From Gemmatimonadaceae bacterium (lineage in GTDB: Bacteria > Gemmatimonadota > Gemmatimonadetes > Gemmatimonadales > Gemmatimonadaceae), in the NCBI GenBank assembly GCA_020853635.1, contig JADYYN010000013.1, positions 31,129-95,128 on the forward strand: DNA of 64,000 nt. The letters run 5' to 3'. The notes beneath the pieces were generated by a model. The model worked only from the letters and a program-made list of their open reading frames with translations, searched no databases and was not told the DNA's origin. Made by a program: the position numbers and the translations under genes. Below are positions 4,731-28,016 of the stretch, piece after piece (within the stretch, counting starts at the first letter, position 1; the number at the start of each line of letters is the position of its first letter).

Positions 4731-5714
4731 TCACGCGAGCGCTTCGATCACCGCCGACTGCGTGGACTCGGTCGCCGCACCCTCGGCGCGGACGGAGACA
4801 CGAGATCCCACCGCCACTTCGCGCCGAACCATCGCGATCGCCAGTGCGCCGCGCGTCGCAGACATGGCCGTTGAGCGTACATCCCCGACCTCGGCGCCGG
4901 CTTCGTCGAACACGAGTGCACCCACGGGCAGTGATGTCGACGACGTGAGCCGTCGCAACAGTCGGTTCACATGCCCACGGAAGTGGATTCGGGCGACGAC
5001 CTCTTGTCCCGTGTAGCATCCCTTGCTGAACGAGATCGCGCCGAGTGCGTCGAGTGCGGCTTCCTGCGCGAGCGTCTCGTCGTTCATCTCCACGCCCCAG
5101 GCAGGGAGTCCGGCTTCGATGCGGGAGGCCTGCAACGCGGCGTCGTCCGCGCGTGACCAACCCGCCGTCACTAGGGTCGCCTCGAGTGCGTCGATCCGTT
5201 CGCGCGTTCCGATGACATCGAACCCGGGCAACGCGAAGTCCGTGCTGCGCACGATCGTGAGTGCGGACTCACTCGCACCGACGGTGACCACAGCGTGCGC
5301 GCCGAGTGACTCGAATGCACTCGCGTCAAGCGGGAGCGCTCCGTCCCCGCTCGCGGCACACGCTGCCGCGAGCGCACTCGCTGCACCATCGCCGTAGACA
5401 CCCACGCAACCCGTGTGTTCGGTGATCACCGTGTACTTCGCGAGTCTCGGGTTCACGAACTTCTTGATCATCGAGACGAAGCCGTCGCCGGAGCGTGCTT
5501 CGCTGTCGATCAGGAGATCGTCACCGCGATCGAACACGCGCACCACGGCGATCACGCGTCCCTTCACCGTGAGCGCCGCCGCGCGCTGCCCGTGACCTGG
5601 TGTCAGCGCGACCACATCATTGGTGACGAGCCCGCCCACCGCAGCCTTCGCACCGGCGCCACTGAACGTCATGCGCATGCGATCATCGCGACGCGCCAGG
5701 AATCGCGTGCTCAT
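4731..5714 (-). CDS. YgfZ/GcvT-domain folate-binding protein
   Basis: KGCYTGQEVVARIHFRGHVNRLLRRL signature; ATG at 5714 overlaps upstream stop (ATGA). Confidence 0.8.
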   Translation of the reverse strand: MSTRFLARRDDRMRMTFSGAGAKAAVGGLVTNDVVALTPGHGQRAAALTVKGRVIAVVRVFDRGDDLLIDSEARSGDGFVSMIKKFVNPRLAKYTVITEHTGCVGVYGDGAASALAAACAASGDGALPLDASAFESLGAHAVVTVGASESALTIVRSTDFALPGFDVIGTRERIDALEATLVTAGWSRADDAALQASRIEAGLPAWGVEMNDETLAQEAALDALGAISFSKGCYTGQEVVARIHFRGHVNRLLRRLTSSTSLPVGALVFDEAGAEVGDVRSTAMSATRGALAIAMVRREVAVGSRVSVRAEGAATESTQSAVIEALA

Positions 5715-6400
5715 CGCCGGCCTCCGGCACCCACGCCGCTCAGTGCACGCACACGCTCCACGGTGAGGTCGGCGAACTGCTCCACCCAGGCATCGGCCTC
5801 CACCGCTTCGTGCGCGGGGAACGCACCCACGGCGACCACGGGTATACCCGCCTCGTGCGCCGCGCGCACCCCCACCAGATGATCCTCGATCGCCAACGGC
5901 TTGAGCGTCTGTCCCGGGAACAACTGCGCGATCCGAGCGAGTGCGGCCAGCCACGGCGCACGCGATGGTTTGCCCGGCGAGACGTCTTCCACGGCGATGA
6001 TCGGTCGCAGCACACCGGCGATCCCGGCAAGGTCGAGCACGAACTCCACCTCGCGGCGTGACGCGCGCGTCACCAGCGCGACACGGGCATGGGACGCCAA
6101 CGACTCGAGCGTCTCGCGCACGCGCGGTTGAACGGCGATGCCTTTGCCCGCACGCGCGGCGAACGCACGCTCGGCGCGCAATCGTCCCAGCTCCACAGCG
6201 GTCTCATCATCGGCCGCACCGCAGGCACGGCGCAGTCGGCGCACGGCCTCCTCGGTGGTGTAGCCGAGCACCGGGGCGATCGCGTCGTCGGAGGGGAACA
6301 GCGATTCCACCGCGAGTGACTCGCGCAGCGCGTCACGGCGGATGGCGGCGGTGTCGGCGAGCACACCTTCGAACTCGAGCAGCAGCACGGGGACGTCCAT
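5711..6400 (-). CDS. HAD-superfamily protein with variant motif I (EFEG)
   Basis: MDVPVLLLEFEGVLADT...LVTRAS...GKPSRAPW...AIEDHLVGVRAAHEAGIPVVAVG. Confidence 0.8.
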   Translation of the reverse strand: MDVPVLLLEFEGVLADTAAIRRDALRESLAVESLFPSDDAIAPVLGYTTEEAVRRLRRACGAADDETAVELGRLRAERAFAARAGKGIAVQPRVRETLESLASHARVALVTRASRREVEFVLDLAGIAGVLRPIIAVEDVSPGKPSRAPWLAALARIAQLFPGQTLKPLAIEDHLVGVRAAHEAGIPVVAVGAFPAHEAVEADAWVEQFADLTVERVRALSGVGAGGRR

Positions 6401-6408
6401 GCCGAATG

Positions 6409-7731
6409 CTAATCGGCTCGGGCCGCCCGAGCGTAGGCCATGTCGAGCAGTTCCACCGGGTGGCGCGCGACCACTGAGCTACCGGCGAGGACCAATCCCC
6501 CGCCGATCTGCATGAGACACCCCGGGTTTCCCGTGGCCACCACTGTCGCGCCCGACTCAGCGATCCGTGCGAGTTTGGGATCGAGCACCCGCTCGGCGAC
6601 CTCAGGACGCACGAGGTTGAAGATGCCGGCGCTGCCGCAGCACTGATCGCTGTCGGTGAGCGGCACGAGCGTCGTACTCGGCAGCGCCGCAAGCACCCTG
6701 AGCGGAGGAGCGGTGATGCGCTGGGCATGCTGGAGATGGCAAGGCGCGTCGTACGTCACGGTCGTCGTCGCGCGGCCCGGCACCGACGCAGGTTGCCGCG
6801 GCCCCGCCTCGGCGAGCAGTTCGGAGACGTCGCGCACCTTCGCGCCGAATCGATTCGCCCGCGCCGCCCACGCGGGATCGTCAGCGAGCAGATGGCCGTA
6901 CTCACGACACATCGCACCGCAGCCGGCGGAGTTCATCACGATCACATCGGCCCCGCTCTGCTCGAACGCCGCGATGTTGGTGCGGGCGAGTGTGCGCGCG
7001 GTCTCGGGATCACCGGCGTGCGCGTGCAACGCACCACAGCATACTTGATCGCCCGCCTCGCAAAGCTGCCAGCCGTTCACGGCGAGTGTGCGTTCCGTCG
7101 CGCGATTCACATCGGTGAACAGCGACTCCATCACGCAGCCGGTGAGCAACGCAGCGCGCCCGCGGTGCACATCCATATGATGCGTGTCGTCGGTCGATGC
7201 GAGTCGTACCGTCGCGGGATCGTAGCCGGGGGCCACACGCCGGGCCGTGCTCGCCAACATCGCGAACGGCATGCCCATACGTGCCGGCAACACTCGCGCG
7301 ACGAGTCGCGCGAGCCCGGAGGCGCGTACTACGCGTGCCGCCGCGAGCACCGGTCGCAACAACCAGAGCTCCGCGAATACCGACAGGATGAAGCGTGCGA
7401 CGAACGGCAATGGCCGATGCGTCGCCAGCGTCGCGCGCGTGGCTTCGATCAACTCACCATACGGCACCCCGCTCGGGCACGCCGACTCACAGCCGCGGCA
7501 GCCGAGGCATTGGTCGAAGTGCCGGCCGATCGTCGCGTCGTCGGGTGAGATGCTGCCTTCGAGCAAGGCGCCCATCAACAGGAGTCGCCCGCGTGGCGAG
7601 TCGTTCTCGTCGTCGAGCGCGAGGTACGTCGGACACGCGGGCAAGCAGAAGCCACAGTGCACGCAGCGGTCGAGCCCGGCGCGGGCCTCGGCGAGCGGCG
7701 ACTGGGCGATGGGGAGCGCGGTACCGGTCAT
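6409..7731 (-). CDS. glcF: Glycolate oxidase iron-sulfur subunit
   Basis: CVHCGFCLPACPTYL and CLGCRGCESACPSGV 4Fe-4S motifs, CCG repeats; clustered with glcE/glcD. Confidence 0.85.
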   Translation of the reverse strand: MTGTALPIAQSPLAEARAGLDRCVHCGFCLPACPTYLALDDENDSPRGRLLLMGALLEGSISPDDATIGRHFDQCLGCRGCESACPSGVPYGELIEATRATLATHRPLPFVARFILSVFAELWLLRPVLAAARVVRASGLARLVARVLPARMGMPFAMLASTARRVAPGYDPATVRLASTDDTHHMDVHRGRAALLTGCVMESLFTDVNRATERTLAVNGWQLCEAGDQVCCGALHAHAGDPETARTLARTNIAAFEQSGADVIVMNSAGCGAMCREYGHLLADDPAWAARANRFGAKVRDVSELLAEAGPRQPASVPGRATTTVTYDAPCHLQHAQRITAPPLRVLAALPSTTLVPLTDSDQCCGSAGIFNLVRPEVAERVLDPKLARIAESGATVVATGNPGCLMQIGGGLVLAGSSVVARHPVELLDMAYARAARAD

Positions 7732-8618
7732 CGTGCTTCCCCCAACAGGCCGGGGTTCAGGATATGCAGCGGGTCGAAGCGATCACGCAGTTGCCGCGAG
7801 AGGGTGTCCCAGCGCCAGTGCATGGCCGGCGACGGCGGGGCGCACACGCGGCGCAGCACCGACCACGCGTCCGGGTCGAGTGCGTGTACGTGGCCGGAGG
7901 ATGCGAGCGTGGCCCGCATCGCGGCGACGGCGGTGGCGTTACCGCCGAGTCGTACCAACCATCGCGCATCGGCGACGCCAAGTCGTGCGGCGAGGTCCGG
8001 TGTGAGGGCGAATGATGCCAGCGGCGCGACGGGCAGTGTGGGGAATCCCTCGCGCGGCGTGACCGCGAGCGTTTCGTCGACCTGCGGCCGCGGGCGCAAA
8101 CGGAGGTGCGCGCGTGTGATCACCGCGAGGGTCCCCCACGCGCCGACGATCGCACGGGTAAGATCGAAGCCGGCGACGTTCTTCACCACGCGTCCTCCGG
8201 CGACGATCATGCGCGCCGTGCCGTCGACCGCCTCGATGCCCAGCGCCAGATCACGCGGGCGGCCCAGCGTCTCGGCGAAGGGTCCGGTGGTGGCGGTCGC
8301 GAGCGTCGCGCCCACGGTGCCCTCGTCATCACCCCACGCGAGCAGCGGGCACCACTGCCGACGCTCGCGCGTCGCGGCATCGATGTCGGCGAGTGTGGTG
8401 CCGGCCTCGACCGTGATGGTGAGATCGTCCGGGCGGTAGGCGACGATGCCGCGCAGCCGTGCGAGCGAGAGCGTGTCCGATGCGCGCACGGCATGGCCCG
8501 CGTCACTCCAGCGGCCGGCGCCGACGATGCGCAGCGAGCGCGTCGCGTCGTGAGCCTCACGCACGAAGTCGACCACCTCCGCGCCGGTCGTCGGTGCAAA
8601 CACTGTGGGCGTGGACAT
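7728..8618 (-). CDS. glcE: Glycolate oxidase FAD-binding subunit
   Basis: FAD_binding_4-type region (GRPRDLALGIEAVDGTARMIVAGGRVVKNVAGFDLTRAIVGAWGTLAVIT); ATGA overlap with glcD. Confidence 0.8.
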   Translation of the reverse strand: MSTPTVFAPTTGAEVVDFVREAHDATRSLRIVGAGRWSDAGHAVRASDTLSLARLRGIVAYRPDDLTITVEAGTTLADIDAATRERRQWCPLLAWGDDEGTVGATLATATTGPFAETLGRPRDLALGIEAVDGTARMIVAGGRVVKNVAGFDLTRAIVGAWGTLAVITRAHLRLRPRPQVDETLAVTPREGFPTLPVAPLASFALTPDLAARLGVADARWLVRLGGNATAVAAMRATLASSGHVHALDPDAWSVLRRVCAPPSPAMHWRWDTLSRQLRDRFDPLHILNPGLLGEAR

Positions 8619-10051
8619 CACACGCGCGCCGCGGGGGTGGCGTGCCATTCGCGGCAACTGCGGACCGGCACGACCTTGCCAGGATTCGACCGACGCGTGG
8701 GATCGAACACCGAACGCAGCGAGCACATCGCGTCGAGCGTGTCGGGTGTGAACAGAGCTTCCATGTATGGGAGCTTGTCGAGCCCCACGCCGTGTTCGCC
8801 GGTGATGGTGCCACCGGCGTCGATGCAGCGCGTCATGATCTCCTTCATCGCCTTGTGCACACGCGCCGATTCATCGGCGTCGTCGGCATCATAGGGGATG
8901 TTGGGATGCAGGTTGCCGTCGCCCGCGTGGAACACGTTGCAGACCCGCAGCCGATGCTTCACGCCGATGGCCTGGATGTCCTCGAGCAAGTCGGCGAGCG
9001 CCGTGCGCGGCACGACGGCGTCCTGCACCACGAGATGCGGTGCCACGCGCCCCATCGCGCCGAAGGCCTTCTTGCGGCCCAGCCAGAGACGCGTGCGTTC
9101 GGCCGGATCGTGGGCGATGCGCACACTGCGCGCGCCGCTCTCGAGGCAGAGTGCCTCGATGGCGCGCACGTCGTCGTCGAGCCCGGCCGCCGCGCCGTCC
9201 ACTTCGGCGAGCAGCACCGCCGCCGCATCGCGCGGATAGCCCGCCGCGTACACACTCGACTCTACCGCTTCGATGGTCGCTTGATCCATGAGTTCGAGTG
9301 CGGCCGGCACGATGCCCGCGGCGATGATGCGCGATGTCGCGTTCGCAGCCGATCGCACGGACATGAAGTCCGCGAGCAGCGTGATCACACGCTCGGGGTC
9401 CGGCGTGAGTCGCACGGTGACATCGGCCACCACACCGAAGCAGCCTTCACTTCCCACGAACGCCCCGAGCAGGTCGTAGCCCGCTGATGATGCCGACGCC
9501 GATGCTGACGCGTCGCCGCGATCGAGTTGCACCACTTCGCCCGACGGCAGCACCACCGTCGCACGGATCACATGATTGAGCGTCACGCCGTACTTCAGGC
9601 AGTGGGGCCCACCCGCGTTCTCCGCGATGTTCCCGCCGATGGTGCACGCGGTCTGTGACGACGGGTCGGGCGCGTAGTGCAATCGATGTGCAGCGACCGC
9701 GCGCGTGAGTGTCGCGTTCACCACACCGGGCTCGACGGTCGCCGTGCGCGCGACCGGGTCGATCTGGATGATGCGCCGCAGCCGATGCAACGCGAGCAAC
9801 ACGACTCCGTCAGCGAGTGCGCCACCGGAGAGTCCGGTGCCGGCACCGCGCGCGACGTAGGGCGTCCCATCCTCGGCGAGTGCGCGCATCACCGCGATCA
9901 ACTCCTCGCGTGTGCCCGGCATCACGGCAAGTGCGGGCATCACGCGGTGGCCGGGCAGTGCGTCAGAGCGATATGCGAGCAACGACGCCGGACGTGCGAG
10001 CACGTGCGTCGGTCCGACGATCCGCTCGAGTGTCGTCGCGAGTGCGGTCAC
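8618..10051 (-). CDS. glcD: Glycolate oxidase FAD-linked subunit
   Basis: YVARGAGTGLSGGA, NAGGPHCLKYGVTLNHV, GTITGEHGVGLDKLPYM; GTG start. Confidence 0.9.
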   Translation of the reverse strand: MTALATTLERIVGPTHVLARPASLLAYRSDALPGHRVMPALAVMPGTREELIAVMRALAEDGTPYVARGAGTGLSGGALADGVVLLALHRLRRIIQIDPVARTATVEPGVVNATLTRAVAAHRLHYAPDPSSQTACTIGGNIAENAGGPHCLKYGVTLNHVIRATVVLPSGEVVQLDRGDASASASASSAGYDLLGAFVGSEGCFGVVADVTVRLTPDPERVITLLADFMSVRSAANATSRIIAAGIVPAALELMDQATIEAVESSVYAAGYPRDAAAVLLAEVDGAAAGLDDDVRAIEALCLESGARSVRIAHDPAERTRLWLGRKKAFGAMGRVAPHLVVQDAVVPRTALADLLEDIQAIGVKHRLRVCNVFHAGDGNLHPNIPYDADDADESARVHKAMKEIMTRCIDAGGTITGEHGVGLDKLPYMEALFTPDTLDAMCSLRSVFDPTRRSNPGKVVPVRSCREWHATPAARV

Positions 10052-26424: not shown

Positions 26425-27324
26425 GTGACCACTGCTGAACACGCCTTGCCGCACGCCCGCCCCGCCTCGCGTGCGACCGAGCTCAGCCTCGTCCTCATGG
26501 CGACGATCTGGGGGATCAACGTCTCGGTCGTGAAGTACGGCACTCAGGTCATGGAACCCCTCGCGTACAACGCGCTGCGCATGACGTTGGGTTGTGCGGT
26601 GCTCATGACGCTCGCGCTCACCCGCGCCGGGCAGCGCGCCAGCAACGCCGATCGTTGGCGGCTCATGGCGCTCGGGGTGCTCGGCCACTGCATCTATCAG
26701 GTACTGTTCATCTCCGGCATCGCGCGCACTCGCGCGGGCACGGCGTCGCTCGTGGTCGCGGCCTCACCGGCTGTAGTGGCGCTCGTGGCGCGCGCGTTCG
26801 GGCATGAAAAGCTCCCCATGCGGGCCATCGCAGGGATCGCGTTGTCGATCAGCGGGGTGTTCCTCGTGCTCGGTGGCACGATCCAGGCGGAGGGTGCATC
26901 GCATCTGGTCGGCGACCTCATGATCCTCTGCGCCGTGGTCTGCTGGGCGTTCTACACCGCCGGGCTCGTGCCGCTCACACAACGCGTGGACGCGGTGCGC
27001 GTCGCCGCGTGGACGCTGCTCGGTGGTACCATCCCGCTCGTCGCGATCGCGAGTCCCGCACTGACCCGCGTCGATTGGTCGTTGATCACGCCGCTCACGT
27101 GGGCGTCCATCGGTTACTCCGGGATCATGGCGATGGTCGTTGCGTATTTGCTCTGGTATCGCGGCGTGCATCGCATCGGTGCGACGCGCACCTCGTTGTT
27201 CGGCAATCTGCAGCCGGTCGTCGCGGTGCTCGTCGCGTGGATCGCCCTCGGTGAGATCCCCACCGTCTGGCAGGGAGCCGGTGCGGCGACGGTGATCGGC
27301 GGACTCTACCTCTCCCGCTCATGA
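26425..27324 (+). CDS. DMT/EamA family transporter
   Basis: ~10 TM segments; LVVAASPAVVALVARAFGHEKL; GTG at 26425 preferred (ATG at 26407 possible). Confidence 0.85.
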   Translation: MTTAEHALPHARPASRATELSLVLMATIWGINVSVVKYGTQVMEPLAYNALRMTLGCAVLMTLALTRAGQRASNADRWRLMALGVLGHCIYQVLFISGIARTRAGTASLVVAASPAVVALVARAFGHEKLPMRAIAGIALSISGVFLVLGGTIQAEGASHLVGDLMILCAVVCWAFYTAGLVPLTQRVDAVRVAAWTLLGGTIPLVAIASPALTRVDWSLITPLTWASIGYSGIMAMVVAYLLWYRGVHRIGATRTSLFGNLQPVVAVLVAWIALGEIPTVWQGAGAATVIGGLYLSRS

Positions 27325-28016
27325 AGACGGTCGTCCTGTTCGACATCGACGGTACGTTGCTCCTCTCCAACAGCGCCGGCCGAGTGGCGATGGAAAACGC
27401 GCTCACGTCGACGTTCGGCGCAGCGGGGCCCAGCAGCTATCGCTACGACGGTAAGACGGACAAACTGATCGTGCGTGAGACGATGCGGCTCGAAGGCTTC
27501 AGTGACGCCGAGATCGATGCTCGCATGGATGAAGTGATCACGAAGTATCTCGCGGGCCTCCGCGAGGAACTCGCCAGCGGGCGCCGCAACGCGTACGCGC
27601 TGCCGGGCATCCATCCACTCGTGGACGCGGTCGAAGCCGCAGACGATCTCGTGCTCGGCCTGCTCACGGGCAATGTCGTCGAAGGCGCCGGGGTCAAACT
27701 CCGCGCGGTGTCGCTCGCGCCCGAGCGCTTCGTGCTGGGCGCGTACGGTTCCGACCATGAGGAGCGGCCGCAACTGCCACCCATCGCGCAGCAGCGCGCC
27801 ATTGCGCACCTCGGCCATCATGTGCCTGGCGAGCGACTGGTGATCATCGGCGATACCCCGGCCGACGTGCACTGCGGCCGGGGCGTCGGCGCGCGGGCGA
27901 TCGGCGTCGCGACCGGTGGGTACAGTGTTGCCGATCTCGAGGCGCATGACCCGTTCGCGACGTTCAGCGACCTCACCGACACCGCACGGGTGCTCGAGGT
28001 GATCCGCGATGCGTGA
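27321..28016 (+). CDS. HAD-superfamily hydrolase
   Basis: Canonical FDIDGTLL motif I, LLTGN motif II, IIGDTPADV motif IV. Confidence 0.88.
   Translation: MKTVVLFDIDGTLLLSNSAGRVAMENALTSTFGAAGPSSYRYDGKTDKLIVRETMRLEGFSDAEIDARMDEVITKYLAGLREELASGRRNAYALPGIHPLVDAVEAADDLVLGLLTGNVVEGAGVKLRAVSLAPERFVLGAYGSDHEERPQLPPIAQQRAIAHLGHHVPGERLVIIGDTPADVHCGRGVGARAIGVATGGYSVADLEAHDPFATFSDLTDTARVLEVIRDA

Follow-up and report, generated by a model that had tools for sequence, protein, structure and literature searches.

A HAD-like protein encoded beside the glycolate oxidase genes in a 64,000-nt stretch of Gemmatimonadaceae DNA (the whole of which we call the window) appears to be a pseudophosphatase. We give a probability of about 0.6 to the conclusion that it has been kept for a noncatalytic binding role, probably one linked to YgfZ and to Fe-S proteins. 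The protein, P0001, has a phosphatase fold, essential catalytic residues have been lost, and the gene is under purifying selection. Judged from the sequences, a lack of catalytic activity is highly probable; the YgfZ-linked role, which is suggested by linkage and conservation, is tentative, at a little under even odds.

The gene lies on the minus strand, a point missing from the original description, and runs from 6400 to 5711 with an ATG start and a TGA stop; its open reading frame encodes 229 amino acids. The protein matched the HAD_2 profile (9.5e-14), and its AF2 model (mean pLDDT, 93.6) has the β-phosphoglucomutase (bPGM)/CbbY fold. Foldseek matched the model to bPGM, CbbY, and a Bacteroides pyrophosphatase with TM scores of about 0.7 to 0.78; the bPGM T16A structure 6h8y was among the matches. 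With a Rossmannoid core, a helical C1 cap, and the profile match, the protein belongs to subfamily I of the HAD superfamily. Its best sequence relative in the PDB was CbbY, a xylulose-1,5-bisphosphate phosphatase of the same fold (PDB 4uar and 4uat; profile, 2.9e-20), and bPGM of L. lactis shares both the fold and the cap type. PHROG 8468, a phage HAD-superfamily hydrolase, matched P0001 with an E-value of 1.4e-17, which was better than Pfam's.

Motif I of catalytic HADs is D-x-D-x-(T/V), in which the Asp residues are the nucleophile and the acid/base (PMC6278635). The window protein has no such motif: at 6365 to 6376 (minus strand) the codons GAG TTC GAA GGT encode E9-F10-E11-G12 in the place of the canonical D-x-D-G, at the position and with the codons originally predicted. 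In contrast, CbbY has D8-V-D10-G, and in bPGM, which has no E-x-E, the nucleophile is D8 and the acid/base is D10; a cap-helix His of CbbY is also Arg in the window protein. The other HAD gene of the window (27321 to 28016, plus strand), which had been named as an internal control, does read FDIDGT. Motifs II to IV are present, as had been claimed: the motif II region LVTRAS (6059 to 6076) keeps Thr111, followed by the family-typical Arg112; GKPSRAPW contains the motif III Lys144 (5969 to 5971); and AIEDHL contains the motif IV acids Glu172-Asp173 (5882 to 5887), all on the minus strand. A sequencing error had been thought unlikely, and we could rule it out because all 17 of 17 species of the window's genus share E-x-E.

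We compared 87 positional orthologs from 20 genera of the family (f1, treated here as Gemmatimonadaceae), 85 of which were readable and scored, with 24 orthologs from two sister families (f2 and f3) of the same order. The first motif I position, position 9, was Glu in 65 of the family orthologs, Ala in 12, and Asp in 8, with 2 unread; the second, position 11, was Glu in 59, Asp in 24, and His in 2, and so was acidic in 83 of 85. The commonest motif I strings were EFEG (22), ELEG (12), AFDG (7), EVEG (5), and EFDG (5). Aligning orthologs was the check originally proposed for EFEG, and it showed that Glu at position 9 is typical of the family while EFEG itself is one of several variants. DFDG, which had been named as contrary evidence, was found in no ortholog. 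Eight kept the first Asp, and four of these, in genus g20, kept both (DFDD) and were without Lys144 and the motif IV acids.

The complete catalytic set (both motif I Asp residues, the Ser/Thr, the Lys, and the Asp) occurred together in 0 of the 87 family orthologs. This result strongly favors the pseudoenzyme among the options first offered, which were a pseudoenzyme, a binding protein, or an enzyme with altered chemistry. At least one of Thr/Ser111, Lys144, and Asp173 was lost in 44 of 85 orthologs; Lys144 was gone in 35 of 85 and the motif IV acids in many. Near motifs III and IV, the alignment is less reliable for g37, g38, and g4, the genera that diverge most and that have insertions there. 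E-x-(E/D) together with intact motifs II to IV was present in 40 of the 85 tree rows, including the window protein, and E-x-E was stable in genera g1, g13, and g2.

In every readable row, the orthologs from the sister families had D-x-N-G; their motifs II to IV were intact and their catalytic sites invariant. Ordinary HAD paralogs from related genomes had DxDG in 25 of 25 cases. The residue after the motif II Thr is Arg in the family (VTR) versus Gly in the sister families (VSG). A scan of genomes for E-x-E with one degenerate pattern, by which the result is biased, gave 144 pattern matches and 17 relatives, all in Gemmatimonadota; a search of plasmids for the D-x-N type gave no match. The strictly conserved D-x-N-G HADs that occupy the same slot in the sister families (loci L028, L026, L029, L030, and L107 to L126) are natural counterparts of the D10N mutants of CbbY and bPGM, and structures exist of the CbbY mutant with bound substrate (4uat and 4uau). 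Because the D10N variant of bPGM cannot protonate the leaving group (PMC11283535), the sister clade is, by analogy, probably slowed or altered too. However, the rest of its active site is tightly conserved, and thus the whole clade need not be inactive.

In a tree that included ordinary HADs, the E-type and N-type proteins formed one clade (96/94) apart from the 25 DxDG paralogs, CbbY, and TM1254, which rules out replacement by an unrelated gene in this slot; each type was also one clade by itself (100/99). Parsimony on a tree for which the catalytic columns had been removed from the alignment gave E9, E11, T17, R21, D65, R112, K144, E172, and D173 at the root of the family. The minimum numbers of changes inside the family, with possible reversals counted, were 4 at position 111, 5 at 144, 5 at 172, and 8 at 173. 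Since the root had E-x-E with intact motifs III and IV, the changes in motif I came first, on the stem branch, and decay of the other motifs followed, more than once. Because the N-type has a derived state of its own, the common ancestor of the two types could have been either D-x-D or D-x-N. In some genera the gene itself is gone: in genomes G076, G022, G069, and G061 (genera g5, g7, g44, and g36; loci L182 to L185), glcF directly adjoins ygfZ and the HAD gene is cleanly missing. In another genome (G160, locus L188) glcF and ygfZ are separated by ∼680 nt in which no HAD match was detected; this gap may hold either some other gene or a strongly degenerate HAD copy.

Where the gene is present, it is maintained, as indicated by Nei-Gojobori dN/dS values of 0.07 to 0.30 in all 15 close pairs (0.07 to 0.23 in the degenerate g20 pairs), and these values rule out a pseudogene. 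By genus-weighted entropy, the two most conserved sites were R21 (6338 to 6340, minus strand), which is invariant in the family (85/85) and His in the sister families, and D65 (6206 to 6208, minus strand), which was found in 84 of 85 orthologs. The hinge/cap residue T17 (6350 to 6352, minus strand; 83/85) was also among the most conserved. In contrast, K144, E172, and D173 ranked 85th, 49th, and 82nd of 229. Thus, the constraint now lies on a cap/hinge patch and no longer on the chemistry. In an alignment made by eye, we take T17 and R21 to be equivalent to bPGM T16 and H20, at the hinge beside D10. R21 may form a salt bridge with either the acid at position 11 or D65.

These results suggest how a HAD subfamily I fold could have given up the Asp-phosphate reaction. 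At the reconstructed family root, both motif I positions are Glu and are joined by Arg21 and Arg112; the Lys and acids of motifs III and IV were then lost in several lineages and the whole gene in some genera. By established HAD chemistry, the carboxylate of Glu9 would reach one methylene too far into the phosphate/Mg2+ site to be a nucleophile, and with the nucleophile Asp missing, no Asp-phosphate chemistry is predicted. The fold and the cap/hinge patch (T17, R21, D65, and an acid at position 11) are retained, so binding, as a regulator or partner, is the protein's most likely mode of action. Its most likely partner is YgfZ, whose gene accompanies the HAD gene at all loci examined, and the pair would serve Fe-S proteins, GlcF among them. 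Pseudophosphatases as such are already known, and so, in general, are HAD proteins whose motif I has changed. STYX and MK-STYX are similar in that a phosphatase fold is kept under selection with its catalytic residues replaced; however, they have Cys-based PTP/DUSP folds, whereas the protein described here has a bacterial HAD fold and is encoded in a metabolic/Fe-S gene cluster.

The order of genes on the minus strand is glcD (8618 to 10051; PRK11230, 7.7e-137), glcE (7728 to 8726; PRK11282, 5.7e-45), glcF, which encodes the Fe-S subunit of glycolate oxidase (6409 to 7731; PRK11274, 8.6e-90), the HAD gene, and ygfZ (4731 to 5714; COG0354; TIGR03317, 4e-25), and the same order recurs in further genera of f1 and in both sister families. 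YgfZ is a folate-binding Fe-S cluster assembly or repair protein; it binds tetrahydrofolate and supports Fe-S enzymes (PMC8593673), and COG0354 genes frequently cluster with genes for Fe-S proteins (PMC3223725). Its motif KGC[YF]xGQE was found in 112 of 113 locus copies. The stop codon of the HAD gene and the start codon of ygfZ overlap as ATGA (5711 to 5714), as they do in some relatives, and the two genes are likely to be translationally coupled. In all 104 of the 104 loci with enough flanking sequence, ygfZ was directly downstream of the HAD gene on the same strand; removing nine loci that had been chosen partly by position left 95 of 95. Gene order by itself is no proof of partnership, and the persistence of ygfZ without the HAD gene in several genera counts against it.

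The linkage to glcF was looser. In 88 of 103 loci this gene lay no more than 600 nt upstream; among the remaining 15, it was 0.8 to 2.2 kb away in ten and was not within the stretch in five. The HAD protein could instead regulate glycolate oxidase (GlcDEF) itself or assist its assembly, sensing glycolate or 2-phosphoglycolate, as the place of its gene between glcF and ygfZ would allow. The window's genome bin also contains two RuBisCO large-subunit genes of different types (G000:C215:4788-5711, L218, and G000:C92:37544-38437, L219), each with a phosphoribulokinase gene 1 to 2 kb downstream, so that 2-phosphoglycolate could arise; type I and type II RuBisCO have been reported in Gemmatimonadota metagenome-assembled genomes (PMC10581226). 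However, the HAD gene stays with ygfZ where no GlcF was found at the cutoff (G070 and G034) or GlcF is more than 10 kb distant (G107 and G087), and glcF persists without the HAD gene in several genera, which leaves this explanation doubtful. The original prediction also tied the protein to 2-phosphoglycolate or glycolate metabolism, and that tie proved weak. The glycolate neighborhood and the subfamily I fold suggest Gph, but the protein scored 46.7 bits against PGP_bact (TIGR01449), for which the cutoff is 180, and it does not have the motif I; a better PGP-like HAD with DLDGT is encoded elsewhere in the genome (G000:C239; 105 bits, also under the cutoff). A role as 2-phosphoglycolate phosphatase is thus unsupported and unlikely.

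A different possibility is that the protein is still an enzyme, with Glu9 as nucleophile or base, or as a Mg2+ ligand for direct attack by water, Glu11 as acid/base, and a phosphorylated or other anionic metabolite as substrate. Weak or altered activity is possible in the 40 of 85 orthologs that combine E-x-(E/D) with intact Thr, Lys, and Glu-Asp; position 11 is nearly always acidic, and E-x-E is both the reconstructed ancestral state and stable in three genera. However, 12 orthologs have Ala at the first position, purifying selection persists in lineages where the Lys and Asp are gone, and to our knowledge no HAD has a Glu nucleophile. On balance we consider this unlikely, and we consider it very unlikely that a concerted change of E9, E11, and R21 at the family base produced a working glutamate-based center in those orthologs, about half of the family, whose motifs II to IV are intact; if it did, such an enzyme would be the first of the HADs to carry Glu in place of the nucleophile. 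At the other extreme, a decaying and functionless gene held only by the operon structure would agree with the repeated loss of motifs and the complete loss of the gene in several genera. Such decay is extremely unlikely given the low dN/dS values in every pair, the intact reading frames, and the persistence of R21 and D65 across 20 genera.

In a collection of open-access papers, we found no precedent for a HAD pseudophosphatase, a Glu nucleophile, or a HAD-YgfZ operon, and no family-wide E-x-E HAD in the glcF-ygfZ slot. If the protein is a pseudophosphatase, this one conserved chromosomal slot holds a natural stepwise series of a phosphatase losing catalysis under selection: from D-x-D in ordinary HADs to D-x-N in the sister families, E-x-E at the family root, A-x-D or E-x-H with loss of the Lys and acids, and finally loss of the gene. 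The protein is also a candidate companion for Fe-S maintenance of the YgfZ/IBA57 type, one that seems not to have been described before, with the near-invariant R21 and D65 as targets for mutation. The profile-based labels given to such genes, HAD hydrolase or weak phosphoglycolate phosphatase, are probably wrong.

The sequence TTAG-N-ATTC, which includes the stop codon of glcF, lies at 6398 to 6412 on the minus strand, 6 to 8 nt upstream of the ATG of the HAD gene. Most of the genus's 17 species keep this element despite variation in the codon that precedes the stop, and it looks like a TANNNT −10 box that could give HAD-ygfZ its own promoter and a leaderless transcript.
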